64,000 nucleotides of DNA from Chimonanthus salicifolius (lineage: Eukaryota > Streptophyta > Magnoliopsida > Laurales > Calycanthaceae), in the NCBI GenBank assembly GCA_013350335.1, contig CM023535.1:35930991-35994990 (forward strand), given 5' to 3'. The position numbers and the translations under genes were made by a program. The notes below the pieces were generated by a model. The model was not told where the DNA came from, searched no databases, and saw only the letters and a list, made by a program, of their open reading frames with translations. Shown piece by piece: positions 13,739 to 55,662 of this stretch (position 1 is the stretch's first letter; the number at the start of each line of letters is the position of its first letter).

Positions 13739-16021
13739 GTTCCGTCCATTTCCTGTGTCATCAACTAAGGTAGAGTAGGACGTTAGACAATGCACACAGT
13801 ATGTATTCCAATTAGGGTCAAACATATGGGTCAGTATAAAAATCCAAATATAATACATCATACCGTACTTGTAAAGCATCATATCCAAAACATTGTATGA
13901 TAATACAGATCCAATCATACAAATAAAAACCATAAACCGTGCATGATAATAGAGATCATAATCATGCTAATTCAATGTCATGCCATGGGTGTCATATGCC
14001 ATGAGTCCCACCCATCACCCATATCACAATCACATAGTATCCTCTTGATGGAAACTCCTCATCAAGGTATCCTCACGAATGCCTTACGGACGCCCCGACA
14101 GAGCGTGGTCTCCGGTTACCTCTTGATGGATTAATGCACATCATGTAACGCCCCGCCCTTTTTCACTCGCTTTTTCCCATAAATTCAGAGTCTATTTTTT
14201 TTTATAACAGAGTAGAGTGATAGAGCGCGGGGCGTCACGACCCGAGGTAAGTCCGAACTTTCAAAGTCCGACCCTTAACTGGCCAACCCTATGTGTGTAT
14301 GGATCCAGTCCAATAAAATGGTTCGCACATAGCAATATCGAAATGCGGAATAAAATCATAACCTGCGGAATCATGACATCAAAATGCGGAATCATAATAG
14401 AACCAAGTTCTTTCCATTCAGATAGCAAAGTACGTCATAATCATCAAACCAAAACATTCAACCATCTAAGTTATTATATTCCGAAATCCAAATACTCAAA
14501 TACAAGTTCATGAGTACCTTTATTCAAAAACAAGTAAAGTAAGTCTTCCAAACTCCTATGCCTGGTCCGTCATAGGTTCATTATTCCCCTGATTACCTGT
14601 ATCATCAACTAGGGTAGAAGTAGGGCGTTAGTACAACGCGCCCAGTAGGTATTCCAATTACGGCTAACACATGGTTAGTACCAAAACATATATAATAATA
14701 TAGTGATGTCACAACCATATAAAATCCATGCCATGCAATATGACAAATATGCAATGAGTCCCACCCATCACCTGTATATAAATGTGCCCACCACATAGGT
14801 CTTTCAGACGCCCCGACGGAGTGTGGACCCTCCGGAAATCTTCTTGATGGAAATCACATCAAGGTGTTGCACATAGGTTTTTCGAACGCCCCGACGGAGT
14901 GTGACCCCTCCGGTTATAAATCCTCCACCCCATGCCATGCAAGAGATGCCAAGGAAACACATGCCATTTTATAAGATAAACATAGCATTGAAAATCATCA
15001 TTTGAAAACACGTACAACACATGTTTTTTATATAAATAAACCTAGCATGTAAAATCATCCTTTGAAACATAATTGGCCCACGCTATTTTAAACACTTAAA
15101 TATAGCATTTGAAATTCAATATAATAAAACATATCCTTGGAAACATATTTTCATCAAACATAATATAAAAACAAAGTACATAAGCCATGGTTTCAAAGAG
15201 GTGGAATCCTACCTAAGACCGTTCACAAGTCCTTGCGTTTCCGTCCAAAATTCGATTACCGATCGCGTACCACTTGCGAGATCCCGTTACCTTATAATAT
15301 AACGATAAATCAACACCGAGTCTCACCTAATTACAAGGTTCTAAGTCTATAAACAAAAACCCATGTAACGCCCGCCCCTTTTCACCGAAATCAGAGTCTC
15401 TTTTTTTTTTTTTTTTTAAATAACGTGTGACAAAGGGCGCGGACGTCACGACGCGAGTTAAGTCCGAGCTTCTAAAGCCCGGCCCTTAACTGGCCAACCC
15501 TACGTGTGTGTGGAACTAAGTCAACGGAGAATGGTTCACACGTAGCAGTAACCTTGCGGAATATTAAATTAAGTGCGGAAATATAATTGAGACTATCCTA
15601 CAAATTGTAGATAGCAGGGAAAAACATTCTTTTAATTACAAAGTTACCTCAAAATCATAATGTCCATAATAAAATCCAAAACATATCAAGTACTCTAAAT
15701 TATTACATTCCGACGAGCTAAGCTATTCAAATTACATTTCCAAAATAAATTAAATAAACTAAGTAGTCCGCCTTCCCAAACTCCTAAGCTTGGCCTCCGT
15801 CTCGTCCTTCGTTCCGCCATCTCCTGCGTCATCAGCTAGGGTAGAAGTAGGGCGTTAGACAACGTGCCCAGTAGGACTCCAAGTAGGGCTAACACATGGA
15901 TTAGTGGTAACAAAACATATAGATAATATCATATCCAAAACCATGTAATTTGGTGCAATGTCATGCAATGGGTGTCCTATGTCATGAATCCCACCCATCA
16001 TCCATACCATCATGCTGCCAT

Positions 16022-16165
16022 ATCCCCCTTGACGGAAAAACCTCGTCAAGATATAAATAATCACAGATCATCCCCCTTGACGGCAAAACCTCGTCAAGGT
16101 GTAAACAATCACAAATCATCCCCCTTGACGGCAAAGCCTTATCAAGGTGTCCCCATGCTTGCTTC
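16022..16165. repeat. 48-bp hairpin minisatellite, 3 units (A2)
   Basis: Units start near 16022, 16070 and 16118. Each has CCCCCTTGACGG, a short loop and CCTCGTCAAGG, so each unit folds on itself (CTTGACG with CGTCAAG). The third unit has a decayed right arm (TATCAAG). Confidence 0.85.
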
Positions 16166-16409
16166 TCGGTCGCCCTGACGAAGCATGGACTCCGGTTATA
16201 TCTCATAATATCCCTCTTGATGGATGAAACACATCAAGATATCCCCATGCTTGCTTCTCGATCGCCCCGATGGAGCATGGACTCCGGTTTCATTTCATCC
16301 TTCCCATACCATATCCCTCCCATGCCATGCATGAGATGTAGATGCCATATGCCATGTAATATATATGATCATAGTCATAAAACCCATCTTAAAACCATTA
16401 CATGATTAC

Positions 16410-16552
16410 CAAAATAAATCAAATGAAAGACCATCACATAATACTTAATCCATGACCAAGGTAAATCAAAGGAAAAACCATCACATAATACTTAATCCAT
16501 GACCAAAATAAAACAAAGGAAAAACCATCACATAATACTTAATCCATGGCTT
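16410..16552. repeat. 47-bp tandem repeat, about 3 units
   Basis: Units contain CCATCACATAATACTTAATC and a variable ACCAARRTAAAWCAAA part. They lie between the hairpin minisatellite and the TCCTACC palindrome region of A2. The homologous part of A1 (26760-26960) shows the same words in a more diverged form. Confidence 0.75.
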
Positions 16553-19500
16553 ACAAAAAGGTAGGAATCCTACCAAATACCGACTAACGTCCTTTCTTTC
16601 GTTTCCGTCCGATAGACCCGGTCGCCGATCGCGCACCGTTTGCGATGTCCAGTACCTTATAATACATTAATAATTAGTCCATGTTTTTAACATTTTAAGT
16701 CCATTAATCACACCTTAGCGGGGTTCGGCCATACACCTTGGCCGAATCTCACTAACTAGGTTTTGTAGGTCCCATTTAATCTATTAAACCTTTTAATCCC
16801 ATAAGTCTTAAAAATCAGCCACCCTAGGCTTTATTAATCACATACTTAAGGTTACCATAATTGCACTTAAGTCCATGATCATTTCTCATGGAGTTCTTGA
16901 ATTTGGCCATTATTTACGGTTTTGCCACTACCTCTTTTTCCATGGTTAATCATTCACTTAACCATGTACACCTTTATTCATAATTGATCCATACCCTCAA
17001 GTCCATTAGCGACCCATTTAATCATGCCATAATATCATTAAAACAACCTTTTTTTCTTAACTTAATCTGCATTAATTAACCACATACATAAACCCTTTCT
17101 TAGCCCATAAAAATGACTTATAATTGAATCATCATTCTTAGCCACATCTTGAGTCCATAATTGATCCATCAACCATATCACAAGACCACTTACCTCAACC
17201 ATCTAATTAACCTAATTCCATTAATTTAAGCATATACATACACATTAATCTTAGACCAAAAAAATGATCTACAATTGGGTCATGGGTTCGGCCATACACC
17301 ATGGCCGAACCCATGATGTCTCTTTCTCCAATTTTCTTGGGTCCATTTACATCATTTGACTCCATCACAAGTCCCTCCATTGAGAGAATCTAAACCATAC
17401 ATTTAATCCATCATTCCTTAATCATTATTTGATACATTTAGGGTCCATCAATCTTAGCCATAATTCCTTTTTCTTTTCAACATTAGGTTCATCATTTGGA
17501 GTTCATCAACATTACCAATTACATTTCAAATCCATTGAAGTTGCCAACATTCCTTCATCCTTACTATGGTCTAAGTACTTCTAAATTCACCAATCACTCT
17601 CCATGGTTTTTATCATTGTTTCCACCCCTTTTAAAATTCACTAATACCCATTCATTTAAAACCTTTATAAATCATTAACCCCTTTTCATAGCCTCCATTC
17701 TCTAAATCCATTAAAATTCTAACCCCATGAGAAGGTTCACATAATGCATTTCCTCATTTACAATCCCTTTAAAATTATTACATTCAATCATTAAAAACAA
17801 ACTAAATTCATTAATCATCCCTTCATTATTCTAACCCTAAAAACTCCATTAAAAATCCTTAATTACCTACCATGGTTTTCTTTATTAAGCTCCCTTTAAA
17901 ATTTACAAACATTTGACCCTTTTTAAACCTCCAAATTATTAATGCATTACTCCATATCTTCCATCCTTCTAAACCCATTTAAAGCCACCATTACATCACC
18001 ATAGGATTTAAAAACATTCCATCCCTAAAATCTCCCCATGGTTTTATTTTTTAGAACACTATTTCCCACACTTAAAATCCATTTTAAACTATCACCATTC
18101 TCAACCATTTTTCCCTATTTTTACACCCTTCAAATTTACAAACACATAACCCTAGGGTTCATGGTTCACTCCCATCTATGCCTTTCAAGGCCATAAAACC
18201 ATTTACATTTTTATGAATTTCTTCATTTAAAACCCTTTCAAAAATCACTACATTTGATCATAAAAACTCTAAAAATCATAATCATCTTTCCATGGCTTTC
18301 ATTCTTTACAACCCTAATAAAATCACTTAAACACCAACCATGGTTTTGACCTTAAAAACTCCATTCCAATTTACTTAATTACTCACCATGATTCCTTCCA
18401 AAAATTCCATACATCCATTGCTTAACTAATTTAATTACATAATGTCCTTAATCCATTTATTTTTCTTAACCCTAATTTACCCATTAGGGTTTTGTCCATT
18501 TTTCATCCTTCCATGGGATGGATTTGAGATCCAAGGCCTATGATCATTTGGCCACCATCAAATCTAATAAGAATGGATCCCAAATCTTAAACCCTAAAAA
18601 TTCAAATCTCTTGTTTAGGAATTACTTACAATCCAACGTCTCCTCTGGCTTTTCTTTCTCCTCTTGATTTCCTTAGCCTCCTTTCTCTTTCTTCTTGATC
18701 TTTGGTCGGCCAAGATGCTTTATCAATGGAAAAACATCAAGGCTTGGGTCGGTTAAGGTAGGGTTAGGTTTGAGAGAGGGAGAGGAAGAGATGGTGAGAA
18801 AGAAGATCCCAAGCTTTGATCTTGGAGTGGTGGACCATGCTTGCACTTCTTTCTTCTCTTCTTCTCTTCTTAGTTCTCTTCCTCTCTCCCTTGGGTGTGT
18901 GAGGGACGGCTTTGAGAGTGCAAAAGAGGAAAAGAGTGAAATGAGAGTGAAAATGGAGAGAATGAGATGAAAACTCATCTTATCCTTTTGATTACTTAAT
19001 TTACACACAACCATTAACTTTCCCACCAACCCATAAGATATTTTCCATGCTTTATGGTGGTGGTTGGGATAACCACCACCAAGCCAATGTTGGTGTTAAA
19101 GATAAAATGGCTTTTGGTCTTCCATCTTTGACCACCTTTTTTATTAGCTTAATTAATTAATTAAACTGGATCATTAGGTTAAGTTAATTAATTTCCACTT
19201 AACTTAATTCCATTTGCTTAAATTCCCTTCATGCATACACCCATGGTTGACAAATTCAACCATGGTGGCCGGCCCCACCAATCCTTGGTCCACACGCCAC
19301 CTCACTTGGTGAGGTGGAGGTGGGTCCCATTTGGCCATGTCATCTTGATCTAATTAAAATTAACTTAGGTGATTTTTCACATTAATTTATTCAATCCCTT
19401 CCAACTAATGGGATCTCCATTGGGCCCATGGCCCAATTACATTCCCTCCTATCCATTTACCTTAGAGCTTAAATCATTTTGACCAATTGGGTCCCGGATG

Positions 19501-22500
19501 TGCATTGGGCCCAATTTGACCATCCTTGGCCCAATTGACCATCATTGACCCTTTAAACGAATTTAAATCTAATCCATGGTCCATTGGGCCACACTTGGGG
19601 CATTTGTCCAATTTTTGATCCATTTACCATCTACTCCATCAAATTTCCCAATTTCCATCATTAAAATAAATAATAGCCACATTTTTATTGATTTAAAAAT
19701 TCCGGGCTATTACACCCCATGGGGTTCGGCCATACACCATGGCCTAATCCATGGCTTACCATTTTTCATACATATTTACAAAAATGCCGTTGCTGATAAC
19801 CCTAGCCCCTTTTCTTTGCTTAGGTTCCAAGTCATCCATTCATGCTTCCAAAGCACATAATCCCATAAAATAATTCATGGGGTTCTGCGTTACACCATGG
19901 CCGAACCCAATGTCCAATATTCTCTCATATTTACAAAAATGCCATTGGTTTCCTCTTTCCTTTAAATCTTCCATAATTAGACCTTATAAATTTCCCTAAC
20001 CAAATAAGTCCATCAAATACAACTCATGGGGTTCGGCCATACATCATGGCAGAACCCATGGTTCTCCACTTTGGTGTTTAATTACACTTTTGCCATTCCT
20101 TTCTCCATCAATTCATAACATACATTGTATCCTTTATTTTATTTTAAAACTACACATAACCTAACTCATGACATAGGTTCATAATCTGATTTATAAATCA
20201 GCCCTTAAACCATGAATTAAAGATGCCATTAATCCCATAATTTGGACCATGGGGTTCGGCCATACACCATGGCCGAACCCTATGGTGTATAATTTCCAAC
20301 CATGCCATTAAATTGATACCATCCATCTCCTTTGATTCAATTATACATGAGCCTAAACCATATATTTAATTCCACAATTAAATAGGTGTTCAAAAACTAA
20401 ACCTTAGTGGGGTTCGGCCATACACCATGGCCGAACGTCACTCATGGCATCCAATCCATTTATTTAATCCAAGTTCCATAATCAAACCCCACTTTCCATT
20501 CTTGGATAGTTTCCATAAATAATCTTCATGGTCAATAAGTAGATATTTTCTAATTTTAATATCAACTTCCAAGAATAGAAACTTTCTTAATATTCAATCC
20601 TCCTTTCCATAATTGGAAACACCTTCCAAAAATAGATTGTTTCAAAAAATAACAGCATTCCTTCCATTTTTAGATTGCTTTCCAAATTTAGCAATCATTA
20701 CCATACTTAGATGTTTTCTAGTTTTAGCAATAATAACCATATTTGGAACCTTTCCATATTTAGATTGCTCTCCAAATTTAGCAACCATTTCCATCTAACA
20801 TTCCAAACTTAACCCATGGGGTTCGGCCATACACCATGGCCGAACCCTATGGTTCATGCTCTTGGTCATTGGTTTAGATCCAATCAAAACCGATCATCAA
20901 TCCATAAAATGTTTGGTGGGGTTCGGCCATACACCATGGCCGAACCTCACCTCTTCCTTTCATTACTTTAGATCCAATAACTTAGCCATCTAGAAATCAT
21001 GGTTCGGCCATACCAAGGCCGACCCACATCTCTATCCAATTCTCCCTTTAAAATTATCCAAATCTTCCATGGATTTCCGTCATTCAAATTTGTAAATCAA
21101 AACCATAAATCCCCATGGTTTTTATCATGAAATCACCATGTCTTTCCATGTTCCAAAATTTAAGAACATAAACCCAATTCATAAATCAAGTCTCTCCATG
21201 GTTTTCAATCTTAAAATCAACAATTAAATAAAATCTTTCCATGGGGTTCGGCCATGCACTATGGCCGAACCCTGTGGTTCTTTCTCTCCATTTAACCCAT
21301 TAAGCCAACTCTTAATCTTTCTCCATGGGTTCGGCCAACCACCATGGCCGAACCCTATGGTTCTTTTGTTTCAAAGGATAAAATTTTAAATCACGATACT
21401 AACCTTTTCCCCTTTGGTTTCTTGCTCTTCCAATTTTATTTTCTTTTCCCTTTACTCTTCTCCAAACAAGAACTCCTTCTTGTTGCTGCCCTTTCTTCTC
21501 TTACTTTTGGCGTGAAAGAGAATGATGAATTGAGAGAGGGAGAGAGAAGAATAAAACTTGATAATGGGGTTGTAAAAACCGTGCACCCCCTCCTTGCCTC
21601 TCCTTTTATTAGCTCTCCTTAGTCCACATTAGAAATTTCTTAAGATGAGCAACCCTTAGCCGTGTACCCCTTGCCATAGATGGCCATTGCCGACCTACCT
21701 TGTCCTAGATGGCAATACCGTGTGGCCTTGCTTCACTTAGCCATTGCCGACCTCCCTTGCCTTATTAAGACCTTCCTTAATTCTTATTTAGCAAGTATTA
21801 TGCGCATAACCTTAATCATAATCCAAATAATCTTTTAATTTAATTCAAGACAATATACATTCCCTTTTAAAATATCCCATGAGCATAATATGCATATCAT
21901 TATCTAAAGTTCGGCCAAGATAATCTTTATTTGACTTTTAACATCTCCTTGGATATTTCAAATCCAATACTTGGCCATAATATCTTTTATCCAAAATTGG
22001 ATATGATTCATCACCAATTTATTTCAACCTATTTAAATTTTTAATAAGACCAATTCCATCCTTGGTTGGGTCCTAATTGGGTCATGGCCCAATTCCTTAT
22101 CCATATAAGATTTAATTCTAAAATTCACAATTAAAATTGAATAAATAATAAACTGAAAACCCGAGGTGTTACACATCAAGGTCTTCCCACGAATGCCTTA
22201 CGGACGCCCCGATGGAGCGTGGTCTCCGGTAACATTTCATCCCTCCCATGCCATGCATGAGATGCAAATGCCAACATGCTATGTAATAATATAAATCATA
22301 GCATTTAAAATTCCATATTTGAACCATAACATTTGATACAAAATAACTCATCAAAATATGAACTAAAATCATCATACATATCCCGTGGTTTCAATGACCA
22401 ACAAATGTGTCCTTGCATTTTTGTCCGAACACCGCTCACCGATCTCGTCAAGCTGATCGAACACCGCTTGTGAGCTCCCATTACCTTATTACATATCAAT

Positions 22501-24835
22501 AAATTAAAACAATGATCCCTTTTTATTTCCACCCATGTTTAAGTCCATAAACATGTCTTAGTAGGGTTCAGCCATACAACATGGCCGAACCTCACTTACA
22601 TGGTTTTGGGTCCTTCTTTTTAGTCCTTTGATCTTTTAATTAAGCCCAAGATCATTCCATTAGTTTTACATTAATGAAAACCCTAAATCCGCAAACAAAC
22701 ATTCTCCATGGCTCAATCATACACTTAGTCACTTATTCATACTTAGATCCAAAAACATGATCCATCGGGTTCGGCCATACACCATGGCCGAACCCATGGT
22801 CCTTTAATTTCACCATTTGACATTCTTTCCTTCCATAGGTAATCACTCATTTTTGTTTACACACAGGTTAATCACCTATCATAAATAAAACCCTAAGTCC
22901 ACAACAACTTCTCCATGGGGTTCGGCCATAGTGTATGGCCGAACCCATGGTCCATCATTTTTACCCTATTTACATCCTAGCCACTATTTCCATCACCTCA
23001 TGCTTAGGTCCAAAACATAGATCCTTAACTAAACATTTCATTTATTTAATCATGCCTAGATCTCTAAATAACCCATTAAAATGGTCTATGGGTTTCAGCC
23101 ATACACCATGGCCGAACCCATGATGTCTTATTTCCCATCTTCTCCTTTAAATCATTTACAATCTTAGGTCCATAAACAAAGTCCCTCCATGGGGATTTAA
23201 TCATACACTTAGGTTCATCCTTTTGGATCATCATTAACCATATTTAAAACCAGTTAAAATTACCAACATTCCCCCATCATTTTCATGCTCCAAAACATCT
23301 AAGTCCGTCAATATCTTTCCATGGGGCTCGGCCATACACCATTGCCGAACCCATGGTCCATGGTTCTTCACCAATTTCAACATTTGAGACCATTTAAACA
23401 TAAATAGCATTCCTCCATTATTTCTCCCTTTAAAACCTTTTAAAACACTAACACCCTTTCATGGGGTTCAGCCATACAGCAAGGCTGAACCCTATGGTTC
23501 ATCATTTCCATTAAAATAAATCATACATACATGATTGATCCTTTGATGGGGTTCGGCCATACATCATGGCTGAACTTCATCCAACCCCTGTTTGTCCTTG
23601 ATGGTTTTATACACAGAATTTAGGGTTTGGCCATGCAAGGGCCAAACCATGATCCTTGATCATCCACCACTTCCTACATGGTACATGCATAAGGTTATTT
23701 AGCTATACCAAGATTAGGATTCGACCATGCAATGGCCTAACCATGTTCCTTGACCATCTTTTCTTACTTAATAAAATCTCATAAAGTACTTACCGATTCC
23801 ACGACTCCTCCGGTTTCTTTCACTCTTTCTTGTTCCTCCGATCTTCTCCCTCCTTAGCCTCTTCTTCCTCCTTGATCTTTGGCCGAGTGTGAACTTGAGA
23901 GGCCTTGAGACGAAAACCCAAGGAGAGGATTCAGCCAAAGAGTGTAGGTTTAAGAGAGGGAGAGGAGGAGAGAATCGAAACCCTTAATCTTTTCTTGTTC
24001 AATGAGAGGGTCGACCAAGCTTGAGAGGGAGAGAAGCTTGAGATCAAAATTACTCTAAGTCCTTTGTCTTGAGAGGGGGATCAGCCTTGAGTGAGAGAGG
24101 GAGAGAGTGAGATGAAGCAAAGATTCCTCTTTGTTTGTCCAATGTAATTTGGCCAGGGGTGGTGTCCTTTGGTTGATACCCTTTTGTAACTCCTATGACT
24201 CTTCACCTCCTCATTGACATTTACTTTGGGGGTTTCATCCCATGAGATGAAACTCCCAACCGTGTGCCCCTTGGGTTTCCATCATACGATGGAAACCCTC
24301 CAACTCCCAACGTGTAGCCTTGTATATACTTTTTGTAACAACCAACCTTTCACCTCCCTCATTTAATGCTTCCTTTGGAGTTTTATCCCATGAATTGAAA
24401 CTCCCACCTCCTCAACGTGTATAACCTTGATTTGGTCTTATGAGATGCAACTCTCCATCTTCCCACTCCACTCACTTAAAATGAAAGTCTCATTAACTGC
24501 CCATTCAACTCAACTCTTTAACTCAACTCATATCTTTAATTCAACTCCTTTAACTCACTTAAAATCAACTCAATTACTTGATTCCATTTCCAACTTAATT
24601 CAGCCACACTTTAATTAAGGTTGGCTCTCATGATGGTCGACCAAGTCAACCATGACCCATTGGATCCCAATTGGGTATTTGACCCAATTGACAACCTTGA
24701 CCCAATTAAATAAATCTTACCCATTTATTTCAATTGAACCTTATCCATAATCCGTTGGATCTTAATTGGGCAATTGACCGAACATCATACCCCTCTAAGG
24801 TCTATCTCCATTAATTCACAAATTAAATGGACAAT

Positions 24836-26198: not shown

Positions 26199-28448
26199 CT
26201 AGGGTAGAAGTAGGGCGTTAGACCACGCGCCCAGTAGGACTCCGAGTAGGGCTAACACATGGATTAGTGATAACAAAGCAGATAGATAATACGTAACGAA
26301 AAGCCATAGAATGAATGTCATGCCATGGGTGTCTGTGTTATGAATCCCACCCATCATCCTTACTATCCCGATGCCATATCCCCCTTGACGGTAAGGCCTC
26401 GTCAAGGTGTAACCACAAATACAATATCCCCCTTGATGGAAGAACCATCATCAAGGTATAACAATAAATACAACATCCCCCTTGACGGTAAGGCCTCGTC
26501 AAGGTGTAACCACAAATACAATATCCCCCTTGATGGAAGAACCATCATCAAGGTATAACAATAAATACAACATCCCCCTTGACGGTAAGGCCTCGTCAAG
26601 GTACAATAATACATATGTGAAATGTCCCCATGCTTGTTTTTCGGTCGCCCCGACGGAGCATGGACTCCAGTTTCATTTCATCCTTCCCCTGTCATATGCC
26701 TCCCATGCCATGCATGAGATGTAGATGCCATTTGCCATGTAATATATGAAATTCAATAGTAATAAAACCCATCTTAAAACAATTACAAGATTACCAACTA
26801 AATCCAAGAGAAACCATCCCACAATATTTAATCCAAAACCCATCATAAGCATTCACATAATTTCCAAAATAATTTAGAGTAAAACATCACATGATACATA
26901 ATCCAAAACTTATCTTAAAGACAACCACATGATTTCCAAACTAGATTAAAGAAAACATCACCCAAATCCATGGCTTACAAAAAGGTAGGAATCCTACCGA
27001 ATACCAACCCGCGTCCTTTTACGTTTTCCGTTATATAAACCCGGTCGCCGATCGCGCACCGCCTGCGATGTCCAGTACCTTATTACACATTCATCATTAG
27101 TCCATGTTTTAACCATTTCTAAGCCCATATGAAAAAATCGGTCACTATTTAGGTTTTGTGGGTCCCATATCATCTATTAAACCTTTTACTCCCAGAAGTC
27201 TTAAAATTCGGCCACCCTAGGCTTTATCAATCACTTATAAGGTTATTACATTAGCTCCCCTAAGTCCAGGATCAATTTCCATGGAATTCTTGAATTTGGC
27301 CACTAATTACGGTTTTGCCACTACCCCTTTTTTCATGCTTAATCACTCATTTATCCATGCATGATTAAGTCCATAATTGATCATAAACTTAGATCCCCAA
27401 CTTAGGTCCATTAATTACCCATTGACCCATGTCACATAGCCATTAAAATTAATCATTTTATTAACCTACCCCTCATTCATTTAAACCCATACAAAATCCC
27501 ACACTTAACCCTTTAGATGGGTAATGAATCATGGTTTCAAAATACCTCATTCATCAACTCTTCCCATGGGATTTAGCTCATACATTTAAACTACAATGAA
27601 TCCATTACCCATTCATACTCTTTGGAGACCATGAACATCACTCATCCTCCAATTTAACCCACCAAAATGGATCACAATTGGGCCATGGGTTCGGCCATAC
27701 ACCATGGCCGAACCCATGGTGTCCTTTCCCCATTTTTCTTGGGTCCATTGTTACACATTTGGGTTTATCACAAATCCCTCCATGAAGGATTTAATTCATA
27801 CACTTAAAACCATCATCCTTAGCTACATTAGAGTCCATTACAAATATCAATGCTAAAACCATTTTCGGGTCCATCAACACCACCAACATTCCCATTTACT
27901 TTCCATTATTCACAACCCTTCATTCCACCATTTGATCACCATAGGGTTCGGCCATACACCATGGCCGAACCCATGGCTCAAGGTTCACTTCCTCCATGCA
28001 TTTCAATGCCATAAACCCTTTTGCATTTTCATCATAAAACCATTTTACAACTTACTCCCATTCATTCATCTACAACCCTAATTTTCATTAGATAAAACCC
28101 TCATTGTCTTCCATCTTTTTGAAACCCTAATTATTTAAATCCAATTCCAAATCACCCACCATGGGGTTCGGCCATACCACATGGCTGAACCCTATGGCCC
28201 ATGATTTTCTTCCAATCATCCAATTCTATGCTTAATTTCATAAATTACCAAATGCACATAATCCAAGTATTTATTTCTTTTCCCTAACCCTAATTTTTCC
28301 ACTTAGGGCTTTTGCCCACTTTTCCATTCATTCCATTTGATGGATTTAAAATCCATAGCATAAATTTACTTGACTACCATTAAATTCACAAAATAAAACC
28401 CAAATCTTAAACCCTAAAATCCAAAATTTCTTGTTAAAAAAATACTCA
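26199..28448 (-). other. Predicted LTR intron in A1 3' LTR
   Basis: Donor GGATA|GTGAGTATTT is at 28448. Acceptor CTAACGCCC...TACCCTAG is at 26200-26199. Length 2,250 bp. The copy in the other A1 LTR is 34095-36248 (2,154 bp); the difference is two minisatellite units. Both donor and acceptor are intact in this recently active element. Confidence 0.5.
26376..26612. repeat. 48-bp hairpin minisatellite, 5 units (A1 3' LTR)
   Basis: Units start at about 26376, 26424, 26472, 26520 and 26568 and alternate between two types. Type a has CTTGACG...CGTCAAG and type b has CTTGATG...CATCAAG, so both arms change together. The 5' LTR has three units (34270-34405). The 96-bp difference is a two-unit expansion or loss after insertion. 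Confidence 0.92.
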
Positions 28449-29564
28449 CTATCCGACGTCTCCTCCGATTTCCGCCGCTCCCGTCTGTCTCCGTAGCCTC
28501 CTCTCTCCTTCCTTTTAATCTTTGGTAGGTTAAGATCTTTGATCAAGGGTGGCAATCCCCAACCCTAGAATCAGCCAAGGTAGGTTTTGTGTGAGAGAGG
28601 GAGAGGGGAAAATTATGAGAGGGAAGATGATAACCCTTTACCTTAGAGTGATTTCTCTCAAAATTCCACTTCTTTCTTCTCTCCTTCTCTTCTCTTTTCC
28701 TTAACTCTCTTTCTCTCCTTCACTTGGATGTAGGGGACGACCATGGGAGAGTGGAAATGGAGAGAGTTGAATGAAAAGAGAATGGGAAAAGACATCAAGG
28801 CTTATCCCCATTTTTTTTTTTTTTTACATTAATTACCTTCACCAACCTCAAGATATTTTGAGATATTTAAGTTGCTTTATGGCTTATAACTCCACCCCTC
28901 TAATTCCCAACGTGTCTATTTTTTTTTGAGTTTGAGATGAGGTGAGTCTTCACCTCATGGGCCCCCTTTGACCACTCTTAACTACCATTTTAAATAGTTT
29001 AATTATTTAATTACTTAGTTACTTTAATTCCCATTTACTTATTTAAATCACCTTAGGTGAATTCATTATACTTAACCTAATTTCCATTATTCCACCCATG
29101 GTTGACTAAATCAACCATGGTGGTCGGCCCCACCAAACCTTGGGTCCACACTTGGCCACATCACCATTGTTTAATTCCAAATAACTTAGGTGATTTAAAA
29201 TCATTGAATTCACTCTAAGTGGATTACCATTGGGCCTATGGCCCAATTACATTTTTATCTAGCCCATTTACCTTAGAGCATAACCCTCTTGACCCATTGG
29301 GTCCCAAATGGGTATTTGACCCAATTTAACCATTCTTGACCCATTTAAATAAATTTAAATCCAAACCAAGTCTATTGGCCCACACTTGGTCCTTTGTCCA
29401 AGTTTTGGCCCATTTACCATTTATTCCACCAATTTCCAATTTTCATCATTAAAATAAATAATATTCCCATATTTATTGATTTAAGAATTTCGGGCCATTA
29501 CAATACAATCCTCTTTTAAAATTTTCGTCCCGAAAATTCGAGCGAAGTAGGGGTTCAAATCATC

Positions 29565-33626: not shown

Positions 33627-36600
33627 TGTAACGCCCGCCCCTTTTCACCGAAAATCAGAGTCTAATTTTTTTTTAAAAAGTAAAAGTGACAAAGGGCGCG
33701 GACGTCACGACGCGAGTTAAGTCCGAGCTTCTAAAGCCCGGCCCTTAACTGGCCAACCCTACGTGTGCGTGGAATGAAGTCCACGGAGAATGGTTCACAC
33801 GTAGAAGTAAGCATCGGGGAACATTTAAACCAATTGCGGAAAATTATAAAAGAGCCTAACCTACAAATTCTTAGATAGCAGGGAAGTTACATTCATTCAA
33901 TCACCAAACATCCTTAAAACCATAATGTCCAAAATATAGTAAGTAATCTCAATTATTACATTTCCGACAAATTAAACTACTTCAAATACACATTTCTCAA
34001 AATAACTTAAAATAAAATAATTAGTCCGCCTTCCCAAGCTCTTAAGCTTGGCTCCCGTCCCGTCCTTCTGCTCCAGCATTTCCTACGTCATCAGCTAGGG
34101 TAGAAGTAGGGCGTTAGACCACGCGCCCAGTAGGACTCCGAGTAGGGCTAACACATGGATTAGTGATAACAAAGCAGATAGATAATACGTAACGAAAAGC
34201 CATAGAATGAATGTCATGCCATGGGTGTCTGTGTTATGAATCCCACCCATCATCCTTACTATCCCGATGCCATATCCCCCTTGACGGTAAGGCCTCGTCA
34301 AGGTGTAACCACAAATACAATATCCCCCTTGATGGAAGAACCATCATCAAGGTATAACAATAAATACAACATCCCCCTTGACGGTAAGGCCTCGTCAAGG
34401 TACAATAATACATATGTGAAATGTCCCCATGCTTGTTTATCGGTCGCCCCGACGGAGCATGGACTCCAGTTTCATTTCATCCTTCCCCTGTCATATGCCT
34501 CCCATGCCATGCATGAGATGTAGATGCCATTTGCCATGTAATATATGAAATTCAATAGTAATAAAACCCATCTTAATACAATTACAAGATTACCAACTAA
34601 ATCCAAGAGAAACCATCCCACAATATTTAATCCAAAACCCATCATAAGTATTCACATAATTTCCAAAATAATTTAGAGTAAAACATCACATGATACATAA
34701 TCCAAAACTTATCTTAAAGACAACCACATGATTTCCAAACTCGATTAAAGAAAACATCACCCAAATCCATGGCTTACAAAAAGGTAGGAATCCTACCGAA
34801 TACCAACCCGTGTCCTTTTACGTTTTCCGTTATATAAACCCGGTCGCCGATCGCGCACCGCCTGCGATGTCCAGTACCTTATTACACATTCATCATTAGT
34901 CCATGTTTTAACCATTTCTAAGCCCATATGAAAAAATCGGTTACTATTTAGGTTTTGTGGGTCCCATATCATCTATTAAACCTTTTACTCCCATAAGTCT
35001 TAAAATTCGGCCACCCTAGGCTTTATCAATCACTTATAAGGTTATTACATTAGCTCCCCTAAGTCCAGGATCAATTTCCATGGAATTCTTGAATTTGGCC
35101 ACTAATTACGGTTTTGCCACTACCCCTTTTTTCATGCTTAATCACTCATTTATCCATGCATGATTAAGTCCATAATTGATCATAAACTTAGATCCCCAAC
35201 TTAGGTCCATTAATTACCCATTGACCCATGTCACATAGCCATTAAAATTAATCATTTTATTAACCTACCCCTCATTCATTTAAACCCATACAAAATCCCA
35301 CACTTAACCCTTTAGATGGGTAATGAATCATGGTTTCAAAATACCTCATTCATCAACTCTTCCCATGGGATTTAGCTCATACATTTAAACTACAATGAAT
35401 CCATTACCCATTCATACTCTTTGGAGACCATGAACATCACTCATCCTCCAATTTAACCCACCAAAATGGATCACAATTGGGCCATGGGTTCGGCCATACA
35501 CCATGGCCGAACCCATGGTGTCCTTTCCCCATTTTTCTTGGGTCCATTGTTACACATTTGGGTTTATCACAAATCCCTCCATGAAGGATTTAATTCATAC
35601 ACTTAAAACCATCATCCTTAGCTACATTAGAGTCCATTACAAATATCAATGCTAAAACCATTTTCGGGTCCATCAACACCACCAACATTCCCATTTACTT
35701 TCCATTATTCACAACCCTTCATTCCACCATTTGATCACCATAGGGTTCGGCCATACACCATGGCCGAACCCATGGCTCAAGGTTCACTTCCTCCATGCAT
35801 TTCAATGCCATAAACCCTTTTGCATTTTCATCATAAAACCATTTTACAACTTACTCCCATTCATTCATCTACAACCCTAATTTTCATTAGATAAAACCCT
35901 CATTGTCTTCCATCTTTTTGAAACCCTAATTATTTAAATCCAATTCCAAATCACCCACCATGGGGTTCGGCCATACCACATGGCTGAACCCTATGGCCCA
36001 TGATTTTCTTCCAATCATCCAATTCTATGCTTAATTTCATAAATTACCAAATGCACATAATCCAAGTATTTATTTCTTTTCCCTAACCCTAATTTTTCCA
36101 CTTAGGGCTTTTGCCCACTTTTCCATTCATTCCATTTGATGGATTTAAAATCCATAGCATAAATTTACTTGACTACCATTAAATTCACAAAATAAAACCC
36201 AAATCTTAAACCCTAAAATCCAAAATTTCTTGTTAAAAAAATACTCACTATCCGACGTCTCCTCCGATTTCCGCCGCTCCCGTCTGTCTCCGTAGCCTCC
36301 TCTCTCCTTCCTTTTAATCTTTGGTAGGTTAAGATCTTTGATCAAGGGTGGCAATCCCCAACCCTAGAATCAGCCAAGGTAAGTTTTGTGTGAGAGAGGG
36401 AGAGGGGAAAATTATGAGAGGGAAGATGATAACCCTTTACCTTAGAGTGATTTCTCTCAAAATTCCACTTCTTTCTTCTCTCCTTCTCTTCTCTTTTCCT
36501 TAACTCTCTTTCTCTCCTTCACTTGGATGTAGGGGACGACCATGGGAGAGTGGAAATGGAGAGAGTTGAATGAAAAGAGAATGGGAAAAGACATCAAGGC

Positions 36601-37302
36601 TTATCCCCATTTTTTTTTTTTTTTTACATTAATTACCTTCACCAACCTCAAGATATTTTGAGATATTTAAGTTGCTTTATGGCTTATAACTCCACCCCTC
36701 TAATTCCCAACGTGTCTATTTTTTTTTGAGTTTGAGATGAGGTGAGTCTTCACCTCATGGGCCCCCTTTGACCACTCTTAACTACCATTTTAAATAGTTT
36801 AATTATTTAATTACTTAGTTACTTTAATTCCCATTTACTTATTTAAATCACCTTAGGTGAATTCATTATACTTAACCTAATTTCCATTATTCCACCCATG
36901 GTTGACTAAATCATCCATGGTGGTCGGTCCCACCAAACCTTGGGTCCACACTTGGCCACATCACCATTGTTTAATTCCAAATAACTTAGGTGATTTAAAA
37001 TCATTGAATTCACTCTAAGTGGATTACCATTGGGCCTATGGCCCAATTACATTTTTATCTAACCCATTTACCTTAGAGCATAACCCTCTTGACCCATTGG
37101 GTCCCAAATGGGTATTTGACCCAATTTAACCATTCTTGACCCATTTAAATAAATTTAAATCCAAACCAAGTCTATTGGGCCACACTTGGGCCTTTGTCCA
37201 AGTTTTGGCCCATTTACCATTTATTCCACCAATTTCCAATTTTCATCATTAAAATAAATAATATTCCCATATTTATTGATTTAAGAATTTCGGGCCATTA
37301 CA
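33627..37302 (-). repeat. 5' LTR of A1 (3,676 bp)
   Basis: It is nearly identical to the 3' LTR. Donor-like GTGAGTAT at 36248, acceptor-like TACCCTAG at 34096-34095, hairpins at 35486, 35742 and 35963, minisatellite units at 34270-34405. In this position the LTR would drive transcription leftward through the PBS at 33613. Confidence 0.95.
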
Positions 37303-37926: not shown

Positions 37927-40043
37927 GTAAGTGTTTACATAAGAACTTAGTTAAATAAATTGGTAAAAGGGAGCATGATTTGGCCATGGAATGGTTGAAT
38001 CCATCAAGGGTTTAAACCTTGGATAAATGTTGTTTAAAAAGGATAAAAGTGGATCATAGGGTTCGGCCACTTTGGATGGCCGAACCCCATGAAAAGATTT
38101 GGTTAGGTTGATGGTTTTTGAAAGCTAAAAACCATGCAATATGATGGAGATTTTTACAGGTTTAAATTAGACATAAGATGTATGTTAAAGGGTTCAAATC
38201 ATGGGTCATAGGGCTCAGCCACTTTGGATGGCCGAACCCCATGAAAGGATTTAATAAGCTTATGGTGATTTTTGATGGTTTTGAAAGATAAAAACCATAC
38301 CAATATATGAGAGTTTTTAAGTGTTTTATTTGGAATAAAAATTGATGTTTTAGGTTGATCTTCGGATGGCTAAACCATATCATAATTATGGTTAAAAGGT
38401 TGAATATGAACCATACATAAAGGATGGGAGGATTGACTCAAGAGAACCATAGGGTTCGGCCATGTGTATGGCCGAACCCCATGGACCCTTGTATGGGTAT
38501 TTGGATTCTAGTAAATGATTAGAAATTATTGTTGGTTTTGTAATGTTTTTTTTAAAGAGTTTAAGTTATGACCATATGGTGAAGCATGATTAATGGATAA
38601 AAGAACCAAGGGTCATATATAGGGTTCGGCCATTGGTATGGCCGAACCCCATAGAAAGAGGCATAGGTCATGGTTGGGGGTTTTGAAGGATAAAAATTAT
38701 GGAATGATATGAATATCTTAAATGGATTTGTAATATGTTAATAGGTGGAAATAAAGAACCATAAGGTTCGGCCATATGTATGGCCGAACCCCATGGAATG
38801 ATTCTAATGGACATAAGTATTTGTGGAGCCATAAAGATGATGAAAGATTAAGGGCTAGTTAAGTATGAAGGATTGGACCCAATTTGGATTGGTGAGGTTC
38901 GGTCAAGTTGTATGGCCGAACCCTACTAAGGTGGATTGTTTCATGGACTTTGATTATTAAGCAAAGATTAAGCATTGGTTAGTTAGTGGCAAAACCGTAA
39001 ATACAAGTTCTAATGGAATGAAGGATTAAAGGACTTGAAAAAGGGGTCAAACCAAAGTGGTATGGTTCCGCCATGCTGTATGGCCGAACCCTATCAAGGT
39101 ATATTATTTAGTATAAGGTGTTAATGTAAGTTATATGTAAGGTATTGATCAAATGAAAAGGAAGATCAAATCCAGAGTGGGTGAGGTTCGGCCATGGGGT
39201 ATGGCTGAACCCCACAAAGTGGTTTTTGGGATATAAACCTAACAAGAAATCAAAAGGTTATGTTATTAACTTGCTGTTATATAAACAAGGTAACAGGACT
39301 TGAACGGCGTATGAGTCGTAAGCGGGTGACGGTTAAGAAGCAAAGGACACTTGAGTGGTCTTTTGGTAGTATTCCTACATCATTGAAACCATGTATATGT
39401 ATTATGTACTTTTGATGATTTTATTTCATGCTTGATAAGTTATTTTGGTATCAAACAATATGTTGCAATTATGGGATTTTCATGCTATGTTTTGTAATAT
39501 TCTGTAGCAAGATTGGCATTTGCATCTCATGCATGGCATGGGGGGATGTTATGCAACCGGAGCCCACACTCCGTGGGAATGTCCGTGATGCAACTGTGGG
39601 GCCTCCTTAGGTGGTGAGAGTCCCACTAGGAGGATACTTTAACCGGAGACCTACGCTTCGTCGGGGCGTCCGTAAGTCGTGAGGAGTAATTTGATGTGGT
39701 GAATACTATCAAGAGATGAGAATACTATCCAGAGATGAGAATACTATCAAGAGATGAGAATACTATCAAGAGATTATATGTATGTGATGGGTGGGACTCA
39801 TTGCATAAGACATATACTAGCATGACATGGCATTGAATAGGCATGATATGATCTTTATTATCATGCAAGTTTACTGGTTTTTATCTGTATGATTGGATCT
39901 CTGTTATCATACATAATTTTGGACACGATGTTTTATAAGTATGATATGGTATATTATATCTGGATTTTATATACTAACCCATGTGTTAGCCCTAATCGGA
40001 ATACCTACTGGCCACGTTGTCTAACGCCCTACTTCTACCCTAA
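37927..40043 (+). other. Predicted LTR intron in F (acceptor mutated)
   Basis: Donor TTG|GTAAGTG follows a tract of AAGGAGAGAAAAAAAGC type. The 3' end reads CTAACGCCCTACTTCTACCCTAA at 40021-40043; the expected TAG is TAA, a G-to-A change. Length 2,117 bp. Hairpins lie at about 38060, 38213, 38455, 38624, 38768, 38900, 39066 and 39187. Because F is on the plus strand, it confirms that donor, hairpins and acceptor keep their order relative to the element. Confidence 0.5.
39701..39776. repeat. 19-bp tandem repeat, 4 units, in F LTR
   Basis: GAATACTATCAAGAGATGA is repeated at 39701, 39720, 39739 and 39758, with one C/A difference in unit 2. It lies where other LTRs carry the CTTGATGG hairpin units and probably arose from one of them. 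Confidence 0.9.
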
Positions 40044-43611: not shown

Positions 43612-45608
43612 CTAAGGTAGAAGTAGGGCGTTAGAGAACGCGCTCAGTAGGTATTCCAATTAGGGTCAAACACATGGGTTAGTATAAAAATCAAGATATA
43701 ATACATCATACCGTACTTGTAAAGCATCGTATCCAAAACAGTGAATGATAATAGAGATCCAATCATACAGATAAAAACCAGAAACCGTGCATGATAATAG
43801 AGATATAATCATGTTGATTCAATGTCATGCCATGGGTGTCATATGCCATGAGCCCACCCATCACCCATATCACAACCACATAGTATCCTTTTGATGGAAA
43901 CTCCTCATCAAGGTATCCTCACGAATGCCTTACGGATGCCCCGACAGAGCGTGGTCTCCGGTTACCTCTTGATGGATTAATGCACATGAAGGTCTTCCTA
44001 CGAATGCCTTACGGACGCCCCGACGGAGCGTGGTCTCCGGTTACATTTCATCCCTCCCACGCCATGCATGAGATGCAAATGCCAACATGCTATGTAATAA
44101 TACAAATCATAGCATTTAAAATTAAATATTTGAAACATAACATTTGATACCAAATAACTCATCAAAATATGAACTAAAATCATCATACATATCCCATGGT
44201 TTCAATGAGATAGGAATCCTACCAATGACCAACTAATGTGTCCTTGCGTTTTTGTCCGAACACCGCTCACCGATCGAGTCAAGCCGATCGAACACTGCTT
44301 GTGAGGTCCCGTTACCTTATTACATATCAATAAATTAAAACAATAATCCCTTTTTATTTCCACCCATGTTTAAGTCCATAAATATGTCTTAGTGGGGTTC
44401 AGCTATACAACATGCCCGAACCACACTTACTTGGTTTTGGGTCCTTCTTTTTAGTCCTTTGATCTTTTAATTAAGTCTAAGATCATTCCATTAGTTTTAC
44501 AATAATGAAAACCCTAAATCTGCAAACAAACATTCTCCATGGTTCAATCATACACTTAGTCACTTATTCATACTTAGATCCAAAAACATGATCCATGGGG
44601 TTCGGCCATACACATGGCGGAAGCCATGGTCCTTTAATTTCACCATTTGGCACTCTTTCCTTCCATAGGTAATCACTCCTTTTGTTTGCACATATAAATA
44701 AAACCCTAAGTCCACAACAACTTCTCCATGGGGTTCGGCCATACACCATGGCTGAACCCATGGTCCATCAGTTTTACCCTATTTACATCCTAGCCATTAT
44801 TTCCATCACCTCATGCTTAGGTCCAAAACATAGATCCTTAACTAAACATTTCATTTATTTAATCATGCCTAGATCTCTAAATAACCCATTAAAATGGTCC
44901 ATGGGGTTCGGCCATACACCATGGCGGAACCCATGATGTCTTATTTCCCATCTTCTCCTTTAAATCATTTACAATCTTAGGTCCATAAACAAAGTCCCTC
45001 CATGGGGATTTAATCATACACTTAGGTTCATCCTTTTAGATCATCATTAACCATATTTAAAACCAATTAAAATTACCAACATTCCCCCATCATTTTCATG
45101 CTCCAAAACATCTAAGTCCATCAATATCTTTTCATGGGGCTCGGCCATACACCATGGCCGAACCCATGGTCCATGGTTCTTCACCAATTACAACATTTGA
45201 GACCATTTAAACATCAATAACATTCCTCCATTATTTCTCTCCTTTTAAACCTTTCAAATCACCAACGCCCTTTCATGGGGTTCGGCCATACAACATGACC
45301 GAACCCTATGGTTCATCATTTCCATTAAAATAAATCATACATACATGATTGATCCTTTGATGGGGTTCGGCCATACATCATGGCTGAACTTCATCCAACC
45401 CCTTTTTGTCCTTGATGGTTCTTATACATAGAATTTATGGTTTGGCCATGTAAGGGCCAAACCATGATCCTTGATCATCCACCACTTCCTACATGGTACA
45501 TGCATAAGGTTATTTAGCTATACCAAGATTAGGTTTCGACCATGCAATGGCCAAACCATGTTCCTTGACCATCTTTTCTTACTTAATAAAATCTCATCAA
45601 GTACTTAT
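43612..45608 (-). other. Predicted LTR intron in G LTR2 (donor mutated)
   Basis: The donor position reads AATCG|ATAAGTACT (minus) where LTR1 has AATCG|GTAAGTACT, a G-to-A loss of the GT. The acceptor TACCTTAG is intact at 43613-43612. Hairpins are at about 44396, 44597, 44731, 44903, 45136, 45284 and 45361. Confidence 0.45.
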
Positions 45609-51925: not shown

Positions 51926-53613
51926 CTAAGGATAGAATTAGGGCGTTAGATCAACCCGCCCAGTAGGTTTTCCGATCAGGGCTACCACATGGTTAGCATA
52001 TAAAACATGCATATATATCATAGTACATGATTATCAATAAAACATCTGAAAACAATGCTAAGTATGTAAGTGCATATGTAATGAGTCCCACCCATTACCA
52101 GTATACATAGCCATCAAGTTCTTTCACAGTGTTCTTTCATTGGGACTCACACGATAAGGTAATCCACAGTAATCCTCATTTCCTGTGGAAAGACTCTCAT
52201 CATTGAGTTGTTTCACAGTGTTCTTTCTTTGGGACTCACAAGATAAGGTAATCCACAGTAATCCTCATTTCCTGTGGAAAGACTCTCATCATTGAGTTGT
52301 TTCACAGTGTTCTTTCTTTGGGACTCACACGATAAAGTAATCCACAGTAATCTTCATTTCCCGTGGAAAGACTCTCATCATTGAGTTGTTTCACAATGTT
52401 CTTTCATTGGGACTCACACGATAAGGTAATCCACAGTAATCCTCATTTCCTGTGGAAAGACTCTCATCATTGAGTTATTTCACAGTGTTCTTTCATTGGG
52501 ATTCTCAAGTCAAGGTAATCCATAATCATCACCCCATGCCATGCATGAGATGTCAATGTATATGTATGTCATTTGTAAATACATATCTCATCATTCAGAA
52601 CCAATTTGAAACATAATATCAATAACAACATATCTCATAAAAACATGATAAAACCAAATCATAATTGTGGTTACAAGTAGGTGGGAAACCTACTGAAGAT
52701 TAGCTTCGGTGTTTGTTTTTTTTTCACTTGATCATGACTCGCCCACCGCTCAACTTTCGCTTCCTTGTTTATACAATGACAAGTTAATATCATAACCATT
52801 GGATTTCTTATCAAGTCCAAATACCATATTCCATCTTGTGGGGTTCGGCCATACCCATGACCGAACCTGATCAACTTAGGATTTAACCTCCTTTTTTATT
52901 TGATCTCTCTTTTATTTAATCCTTATTAAACATCATATACTACAAAAATACCTTGGTAGGGTTCAGCCATACAACATGGTCGAACCATACCACTTTGGTT
53001 TGGGTCCATACGTCCACTCCTATGATCATTTCATCCATAACCATGGTCCATGTTACTCACCATCCTTTCCATCCTTGAACTCCATATGAGATGGTCCTTG
53101 GGTTTCGGCCATACACATGGCCGAACCCAATGGTTCCCTTGGTTCAATGGTCTCATTCTACGTACTTAACTTAGGCTCTACCATTTTAAATCACATAACA
53201 TCCCATAAAATGACATACGGGGTTCGGCCATTCACATGGCCGAACCATATGGTTCTTTGGATGCAATTCTTCCAATAACTGTACATAATTTATCCACTGT
53301 GTCTTAGCCATAAAAACGGTAGGATTCAGCCATCCATAGCCGTCCCCATAATAAGAACTTAATTCTATTTTTTTTTTCAGTCCTTTAAAATCTTCACACA
53401 TGGTATGGTTTTTATCCCCCAAAATCATCAATCTTAACCAAATAATTTCATGGGGTTCGGCCATCCAAGGTGGCCGAACCAAATGATCCATTTTATCATT
53501 TTTAAACCACCATTACCCAAGGTTTAAACCTTGATGCATTCGGCCATACCCATGGCCCAAAACATGTTCCATTTGTCCCATCTTATTAAACAAAAATCCA
53601 TGGAAATGCTTAC
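51926..53613 (-). other. Predicted LTR intron in B2
   Basis: Donor AATTTG|GTAAGCATT is at 53613 and acceptor TCTAACGCCC...ATCCTTAG at 51927-51926. Length 1,688 bp. Hairpins are near 52840, 52966, 53104, 53220, 53458 and a half-copy at 53540. Confidence 0.48.
52112..52535. repeat. 89-bp tandem repeat, 4 units and a partial fifth
   Basis: Units start at 52112, 52201, 52290, 52379 and 52468. Each has TTTCACAGTGTTCTTTC, GATAAGGTAATCCACAGTAA and CCTGTGGAAAGACTC. CACAGT/CCTGTGGAAA words give partial self-complementarity. B1 and B3 carry instead short CTCCTCCTGG units here, so the array is special to B2. Confidence 0.95.
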
Positions 53614-54185: not shown

Positions 54186-55662
54186 ATCAATTGGGTCAAA
54201 AATGGCTAAATGGGTCAAAGGGCCCAAATGGGACCCAACGGGTCTTACTGGATTATTTGACTGTTGTGTGAGCTTAAATTAAATGGGATTAAGCTGATTT
54301 GATTGGAAATCAAGTGGAGTAAAAATGGGTAGGCCTGATGCACTTGTGAAAACCAATTACAAATGACCAAAATACCCATAATTGGGTCATGGAGTAAAAA
54401 ACGGGTCAAGGAGCTAAAGGGGGGCCCAACGAGTCGGGTTGACTTTGTTGACCACAGCCGACCATGTGGGCCCACAAATGAGTTCAATGGTGAGTTAAAT
54501 CAGGCTAAGTGGAACTGATTTTATTTAATTTGAATTGAAAATGAGTTGATTCAAATGCATTAAATGATTGTCAATTAATGAGGTGAGTTGGACATGTGAG
54601 TTGGACATGTGAGTTGGGTGAGTCAAAGTGGAAGTCAATGGGACTGTAAATCAGTGAGTTCAGACGGAATAGGAGTAGTTTGGCTCAGTCATAACCACCA
54701 AAACAAGTCCCACACATTGGGGACTTGTTGGGGTGTTTTCCATGTTAAATTTTAAATGAAAATACATGGAAATGGGAGGTGTTGCTTGGGGAGTTGAAAG
54801 GCTGCATAGGTAGGTACCAAGGGGTGCCTTGGATAGCATCCAAGACCCATCGTTTTTGGTAAGAATTGATGAGGGAATGGAGGGGTCTTGGGGGCTGATG
54901 TACTAAAGCAAATGACCACCAAGCTTGGCCGTTTTTCACCTTGGAAAGCCAAGAATTCCCATCTCTCTCTCCCTCTCTCCAATTCGTTTTTCCTAGCTGG
55001 AACATCAGAGGATTTTACACCAGTAGATCAAGCACAAAACAGCAAAAGAAAGGAAGAAATAGAAGGGAGAAACCAAGGACCAAAGGCAAGAAGAAAGATT
55101 GGAATTTTGGTAAGTATTTATATGTTATTTTGGTTTAATAACATGGAACAAATGGGGTGTGTATTGGGCCATGGTTATGGCCGAATTGTAACGCCCATCC
55201 CTTTTCACCGAAATATCAGTCTATTTTTTTTTTTTTACATAAAAGTGACAAAGGGCACGGACGTCACAATGCGAGTTAAGTTCCGAGCTTCTAAAGCCCG
55301 GCCCTTAACTGGCCAACCCTACGCGTGCGTGGAACATAAATCCACGAGTACGGTTCACGCGTAGAAAGTAAGCTCGTAACACATAAAAATCAATGCGGAT
55401 GATAATAGACACTATCCTACCAATCTTCAGATACCAGGGAAGAGATATCCATTAAATTACTAAAATGCCCTCATACTGTACTGTCCAAAATAATTTATAA
55501 AACATAGCAAGACATCTAAGTTATTACATTTCCGACAAGCTAAATTATGCAAATACACATTTTCCCAAAATAAACTTAAACAAAATAATTAGTCCGCCTT
55601 CCCAAGCTCCTAAGCTTGACTCCCGTCCTGTCCTTCCGTTCCGCCATCTCCTGCATCGTCGG

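Follow-up and report, generated by a model that had tools for sequence, protein, structure and literature searches.

The window analyzed here, 64,000 nucleotides of Chimonanthus salicifolius DNA, holds plant LTR elements nested in one another, whose LTR ends are inverted (TGTAAC/T...GTTACA). Self-comparison together with these end motifs resolved 15 LTRs, nested insertions being excluded, which make up about eight families by our own grouping. Element A1 is an insertion with both LTRs, a 5' LTR of 3,676 nt (TGTAAT...GTTACA; 33627..37302, minus strand) with inverted termini and a near-identical 3' copy (25731-29502, minus strand), a target duplication AACTC, and the PBS-like sequence TATCAGAGC after the 5' LTR. 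The same PBS-like sequence, partly with changes, follows the I, Cb, Ca, and LTR1' LTRs. The A1 LTR/PBS junction (33619-33629, ACA/GTAAGTATC) is donor-like, probably by chance, given that four other junctions read GTTGGTAT or GTCGGTAT. Based on their 5-bp flanks, which are exact duplications around B1, B2, E, and A3 and differ by one mismatch around A2 and B3, the first four look like solo LTRs, and the latter two do likewise.

The stretches that follow the Ca and Cb LTRs contain matches to Retrotrans_gag, RVP_2, RVT_1, and RT_RNaseH, and these gag, protease, reverse transcriptase (RT), and RNase H matches place the element group in Ty3/gypsy. The defining features of a Ty3/gypsy LTR retrotransposon (LTR pair, target duplication, PBS, and gag/RT/RNase H) are all found, spread over several copies, none of which is complete. 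A preliminary description of this DNA had spoken of Tekay-type elements; the domains seen support that label at the Ty3/gypsy level and not at the level of Tekay. In a search for the features of Tekay (Del) chromoviruses, no chromodomain was matched, only SH3_Tf2-1, below its cut-off, and the RT relatives that carry names, among the best 120 of 7,994, are plant RTs. Between 40541 and 49385 the tandem order is LTR(I)-internal-LTR1'-internal, with two internal regions that are ~92% identical, an arrangement that presumably arose by unequal recombination between LTRs. Both internal regions encode an open reading frame starting MSSNIEY, and the copy at 42151-42327 has a weak zinc-knuckle match. 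An internal piece of A1 (30930-31158) has two counterparts on the same strand, 40726-40952 and 46981-47205, that resemble it at 81-83%; the A1 and I/LTR1' elements thus have an internal segment in common. Relatives were absent from viral_contigs and genome_contigs for the acceptor pattern described below, from viral_contigs for the RT, and from the plasmids collection for positions 33627-34200, results of little weight given that these collections are by description without plant nuclear genomes.

Inside the LTRs lies a set of signals with the layout of an intron. In the A1 5' LTR, all on the minus strand, a conserved CT-rich tract (36392..36409), a candidate start-site (Y-patch-like) element whose end is 143 nt upstream of the donor, is followed by a putative exon 1 (36249..36391) that is ATG-poor, purine-rich, and T-poor. 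The donor GTGAGT (36243..36248) opens, with 36248 as its first base, a putative intron of 2,154 nt (34095..36248) containing 3 palindromic hairpins. The branch-point motif TCTAACG (34112..34118) precedes a pyrimidine tract and acceptor ending in CCCTAG (34095..34111), and the putative exon 2 runs from there to the LTR end (33627..34094), with ATGTAATAA, a candidate poly(A) signal, located 133 nt past the AG.

The corresponding putative introns on the minus strand are those of the A1 3' LTR (26199..28449; 2,251 nt), B1 (3463..5651; LTR 3017-6739), Cb (10882..12604, donor GTAGGT; LTR 10398-13738), A2 (15836..18629; LTR 15364-19714), A3 (55663..57731; LTR 55187-58823), B2 (51926..53613, donor GTAAGC; LTR 61224-62260 plus 51469-53871), and LTR1' (43612..45608), whose donor is mutated to ATAAGT and which the preliminary description had not listed. 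Also on the minus strand are E (donor GTTAGT at 21398..21403, acceptor AG at 14609-14610), the LTR of which is split around A2 (19715-22173 plus 14144-15363), LTR1 (GTAAGT at 23788..23793, AG at 13765-13766), and I (GTAAGT at 62644..62649, AG at 50036-50037). Two copies lie on the plus strand: F (37927..40043, ending at the first AG site, which has become AA at 40043; the next AG is at 40054-40055) and B3 (GTAAGT at 55110..55115, AG at 60767-60768), whose LTR is split around A3 (53872-55186 plus 58824-61223). Ca and J, both on the minus strand, retain the stretch from branch point to AG (2429..2451 and 63230..63253, respectively); the Ca donor is not preserved, and that of J is outside the window. 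With nested insertions left out, the donor-to-AG spacing in 13 LTRs is 1,688-2,794 nt, in agreement with the span of about 1.7-2.8 kb given earlier.

The comparisons below use a MAFFT alignment of the 15 LTRs that was built blind to the intron finding. LTR1' ends at 43140, the LTR set having been defined with 43156. The A1 3' copy and LTR1' are close second copies and were both kept out of the composition and ATG counts; the A1 3' copy was also kept out of the donor hexamer table and the motif-anchored identities, and I was kept out of the exon 1 counts.

At plant acceptors, CTAAC-type branch points lie 18-40 nt from the splice site. The present LTRs have CTRAY at such a distance and a pyrimidine tract: CTAAY is found in 15/15, the branch A is 19-22 nt ahead of the first AG site, and 84% of the tract before the acceptor is pyrimidine. 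TCTAACG, earlier called near-invariant, indeed appears exactly in 12 of the 15 LTR acceptors, out of 16 occurrences on both strands of the window (the other four are at 10255, 30025, 42997, and 47750), and the remaining three LTRs read ACTAACG (E), TCTAATG (Ca), and TCTAACA (J). The bases before the AG vary as previously proposed (CCCTAG, CCTTAG, CCTTCAG, CCTCAG, and CCATAG); the accompanying proposal that the AG itself is kept holds for 14 of 15 LTRs and fails in F, which reads TAA there and has its AG 12 nt further along. In most copies another AG is kept 12-13 nt downstream (shifted by one base in LTR1'), and the acceptor in use may be the first or the second. When the alignment was scanned for an AG with CTRAY 14-42 nt before it and at least 9 of 15 pyrimidines, branch point, pyrimidines, and AG were complete at one column in 14/15 rows; the next column reached 27% and the best antisense column 20%. 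Acceptor-like sites by themselves have a frequency of one per 1,278 nt in the sense LTRs, the present ones included. The 24-column stretch running from the branch point to the AG has an identity of 0.902 (rank 2 of 2,749 windows), versus 0.767 for the 24 columns before and 0.598 for those after. Counting against an intron, other blocks are equally conserved, for example, one at 34520 within the intron (0.96) and one at 33761 in U5 (0.915).

The donors listed in the preliminary description are all present, in sense orientation and inside LTRs, with two of them off by one base (the Cb G is at 12604 and the A1 3' donor at 28449). Donors were located in the 13 LTRs whose sequence extends to the site; 11 share one alignment column, and those of E and I were placed by eye or motif instead. 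GT is intact in 12 of the 13, and its loss in LTR1' (ATAAGT at 45608) is a single case, the close relative LTR1 retaining it. Among the donor hexamers of 12 LTRs (the A1 3' copy dropped), GTAAGT occurs seven times and GTAGGT, GTTAGT, GTGAGT, GTAAGC, and ATAAGT once each, such that changes are confined to +3, +4, and +6, plus the one loss at +1, and T at +2 and G at +5 are invariant. Of the 2,623 sense columns scanned, each with at least 10 rows, the donor column has the highest score for GT plus GTRAGT (1.71; best antisense, 1.57). It has GT in 10/12 aligned rows, the others being LTR1' and E, which is misaligned by 6 columns; the I row starts merely 29 nt ahead of its donor. If complementarity to U1 is scored with GT left unweighted, a U5 block that lacks GT, CAGTTAAGG, takes first place and the donor column second. 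Within its own LTR, out of 2,492-4,341 positions, an individual donor has a rank between 1 and 35, and the sense LTRs contain one GTRAGT per 744 nt; judged from sequence, single donor copies are unconvincing, and the donors are convincing as a set.

Are donor and acceptor better conserved than their neighbors, as the intron proposal would have it? In the 15-LTR alignment this is true of the acceptor. For the donor, the answer depends on how it is aligned: when the 2,767 hexamer windows are ranked by plain identity between families, the donor hexamer comes 487th in the original alignment, which misplaces E and I, and this rank counts against an intron. Anchored on the motif, the donor hexamer is first of 85 nearby hexamers, with a between-family identity of 0.86 versus 0.35 and 0.38 alongside, values that are inflated given that the donors were picked by motif within 8 bases of the previously described coordinates.

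Composition changes at both sites. T makes up 8.7% of the final 52 nt of exon 1, 35.3% of the opening 52 nt of the intron, and 12.8% of the opening 52 nt of exon 2, a step that agrees with the U-rich-intron rule as cited in the BARE report (PMC3735527). ATG density (10 or 11 LTRs) is 29 per kb in far U3, 15 from -260 to -160, and 3.3 over the final 150 nt ahead of the donor, and it then rises to 42 in the 150 nt after the donor and 56 in the remaining intron. Dinucleotide shuffles of exon 1 give 10.8 ATGs versus the 5 observed, and 4 of 300 shuffles are as low; composition therefore accounts for part of the scarcity. Exon 2 is ATG-rich, at 27 per kb and above its shuffles, which counts against an intron; the tallies for intron and exon 2 are slightly shifted, the AGs of B1-B3 having been set 12-13 nt too early in them. 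Further upstream, 12 LTRs contain a conserved pyrimidine tract whose end lies 111-158 nt ahead of the donor. It is the most pyrimidine-rich conserved column in the LTR alignment (weaker in B2, with 15 of 18), and we infer that it marks the transcription start. TATA columns upstream of the donor reach at most 18% of rows in the LTR alignment, and this also counts against an intron.

In total, with GT-AG ends and a donor consensus (12/13 GT donors, 14/15 first AGs), we consider it probable that the LTRs of these Ty3/gypsy-type plant elements carry a spliceosomal intron of the U2 type, a reading based on comparative sequence from one window of one genome. The preliminary description had gone on to propose that the LTR is transcribed and spliced; the comparison supports the LTR-internal intron well, and transcription and splicing of the LTR are at present predictions.

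The putative intron has contents of its own. Near-palindromes of the form GGTTCGGCCAT-N3..9-ATGGCCGAACC number 85 across the LTRs at up to 4 substitutions. In the 13 mapped LTRs, 81/81 fall between donor and AG, a segment comprising 59% of the length, and the other 4 lie upstream of the AG in Ca and J, where donors are out of view. Half-sites are distributed similarly (140 between donor and AG, 9 before the donor, and 1 after the AG). At a looser limit, 86/87 palindromes in the mapped LTRs are inside, the one in B2 exon 2 being a different U5 hairpin. The arrays comprise 2-10 hairpins per LTR, for example, at 35481-35996 (A1), 11533-12567 (Cb), and 19717-21360 (E). In a set of 67 equal-length palindromes that excludes the A1 3' copy, stem pairing is 84.1%, and 52 cells are changed on both sides, versus 20.5 (sd 3.9) when shuffled and 2-25 when slid. 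The double changes are mostly in the four outer stem pairs, with pairing kept (CCAT/ATGG, GGTG/CACC, and GATG/CATC). Pairs with two-sided change (5 versus 5.4) and further pair types (19 versus 19.1) show no excess over shuffles. These data are hints of a structured RNA and fall short of proof, since duplicate-related copies inflate the counts and DNA-level palindrome repair could mimic the pattern.

Other motifs share this segment. The most conserved 20-column block of the LTRs, CATCTCATGCATGGCATGGG (34501-34520 in A1 and its counterparts), has an identity of 0.96, and the CATGCATG within it resembles the RY element. By eye, an in-intron palindrome, GGTAGGATTCCTACC (34783-34797 in A1), is present whole or in part in most LTRs and absent from LTR1. 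A TATA box at 34836 (A1) was considered as a start within the intron and rejected, being found in just the two A1 copies. The motif of intron-mediated enhancement occurs 11 times in the first 300 nt and 51 times in the rest of the introns (3.3 versus 2.6 per kb), with no clear excess.

How might such an intron persist in an element that replicates through RNA? In the mechanism that we propose, RNA would start from a promoter that has no TATA box and lies close to the conserved CT tract, and it would begin with an exon 1 of ~110-160 nt that is ATG-poor and purine-rich, followed by the intron of ~1.7-2.8 kb with its hairpin array and by an exon 2 that starts ~450-550 nt before the LTR end and continues into the PBS and gag. 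The spliced fraction would be the capped, exported mRNA, and RNA that keeps the intron, having escaped splicing or started inside the intron, would be the replication template; with a template that retains it, the intron would persist in new copies. We infer the promoter, transcription, splicing, and division of labor from the position, conservation, and composition of the signals, which are read directly from the window. The previous suggestion that intron-bearing RNA is the genomic form is thus likely and not forced, as a start within the intron or strand transfer within R would also keep the intron. Regarding the latter, ATGTAATAA lies 119-166 nt after the AG in the LTRs having exon 2 (exact in 10/14 and with up to 2 substitutions in 14/14) and is a candidate poly(A) signal. 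If this site were used, R would contain the entire intron, and strand transfer inside R could restore the intron despite a spliced 5' end. Translation is accounted for less well: spliced RNA would keep the ATGs of exon 2 and of the gag leader, so simple scanning to gag is left unexplained, and the Cb leader has five further ATGs before the likely gag start, which again counts against an intron. A strongly conserved U5 block near the PBS (33690-33765 in A1) contains the inverted repeats GTTAAGG..CTTAAC, seen by eye, and is a candidate leader structure.

A start within the intron leads to a supplement to the intron reading rather than a replacement for it, one that is possible and that we hold tentatively. 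An upstream start would give the spliced mRNA, and a TATA-like site, TATTATATATG, 84-92 nt before the acceptor would give the genomic RNA, with R beginning inside the intron. The donor would then be in U3 of the replicating RNA, as would most of the intron, and would be copied from the 3' LTR, such that persistence would require no protection from splicing. The site is an exact TATAWAW in 6 of 15 LTRs and the best TATA column in the alignment (27% of rows), a strongly conserved block follows ~15-20 nt downstream (by eye), and the candidate poly(A) signal would give an ordinary R of ~200-250 nt. However, the exact TATA is absent from 9/15 LTRs, including all four A copies, and equally good matches are found in 36-48% of same-LTR 60-nt windows for A1 (twice), A2, A3, B1, LTR1, LTR1', and F and in 88% for J. 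The full combination, that is, an LTR-internal intron with a confined hairpin array in which mRNA and genome are sorted by start site, with upstream-start spliced RNA being translated and genomic RNA from beyond the donor being unsplicable, its intron hidden in U3 and copied from the 3' LTR, is a speculation that we regard as doubtful.

Could the same signals be something other than an intron? The acceptor-like block might be a core promoter, or a 5'-RNA hairpin, located where transcription truly begins, with the donor-like site being a conserved but untranscribed element of U3; we think this unlikely. Such a reading would accommodate conservation that reaches ~45 nt upstream of the branch point (by eye), the further conserved blocks in the same stretch, and a potential hairpin in the acceptor block (GGGC..GTT/AAC..GCCC) with 92% of cells paired, versus 32-56% when slid, for which a hairpin reading is still conceivable. 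However, as a covarying hairpin the block was rejected, with no compensatory changes in 14 rows and a performance no better than that of shuffles; moreover, the conservation peak spans branch point to AG, and the donor-type substitution pattern, the ATG depletion, and the T-content step upstream would be left unexplained. It seems about equally improbable that the LTR donor is real and mainly joined to partners elsewhere, such as AGs just before gag, the LTR acceptor being minor. By eye, 3' splice-like AGs do lie a few bases before candidate starts in two internal regions (e.g., GATACAG before ACATG), a CTGA..CTCTTCGGAG site soon after the LTR end is flagged by our automatic test in 3/5 leaders, and a direct jump to gag would bypass the ATG-rich exon 2; yet in the five leaders examined the gag-proximal sites were not flagged by that test, and no site within the LTRs rivals the acceptor column. 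That a conserved ancestor merely carried an accidental GTAAGT and CTAAC-AG is, in our estimation, very improbable. The background frequencies of GTRAGT and of acceptor-like sites given above would allow for it, but donor and acceptor are each the best column of their own kind, both are flanked by less conserved bases, and both coincide with shifts in composition.

The intron reading can be set beside known systems. Plant LTR elements are generally without introns, Ogre and EVADE being notable exceptions (PMC12786077); spliced sunflower elements have also been described, in an expressed set that includes no Tekay member. Ogre, a plant Ty3/gypsy element, shares with the mechanism proposed here the partial splicing of its RNA and differs in that its intron is outside the LTR, between the gag-protease and RT-RH-INT reading frames (PMC6317226). 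In BARE1 of barley, a spliced, translated RNA is separate from the packaged RNA, and two LTR TATA boxes provide a precedent for two promoters with separate RNA pools (PMC3735527), a likeness that is putative for the present elements; its 104-nt intron, in contrast, lies just past the gag end, outside the LTR. Splicing, as proposed here, separates RNA roles in the shGAG of EVADE/EVD (Ty1/copia, Arabidopsis), where, unlike here, the intron takes out the protease part of the coding region (PMC12786077). In the mostly open-access literature searched, the plant elements with a described intron are Ogre, EVD, BARE, and two sunflower elements, and none of these introns is internal to an LTR. The present donors are upstream of the candidate poly(A) signal ATGTAATAA, as is characteristic of the foamy virus type, with a placement in R that is putative. 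Foamy virus acceptors are outside the LTR, which is not known to contain a whole intron. The likeness concerns the major splice donor, which in foamy virus lies within the R region of its LTR, ahead of the poly(A) signal, and at which U1 binding suppresses early polyadenylation (PMC3694450).

If the LTR intron is real, its promoter-proximal position would help to explain the great length of these LTRs, and it would provide a simple separation of translated from replicated RNA. Solo LTRs would then be portable promoters equipped with a first exon and an intron and able to feed nearby genes.
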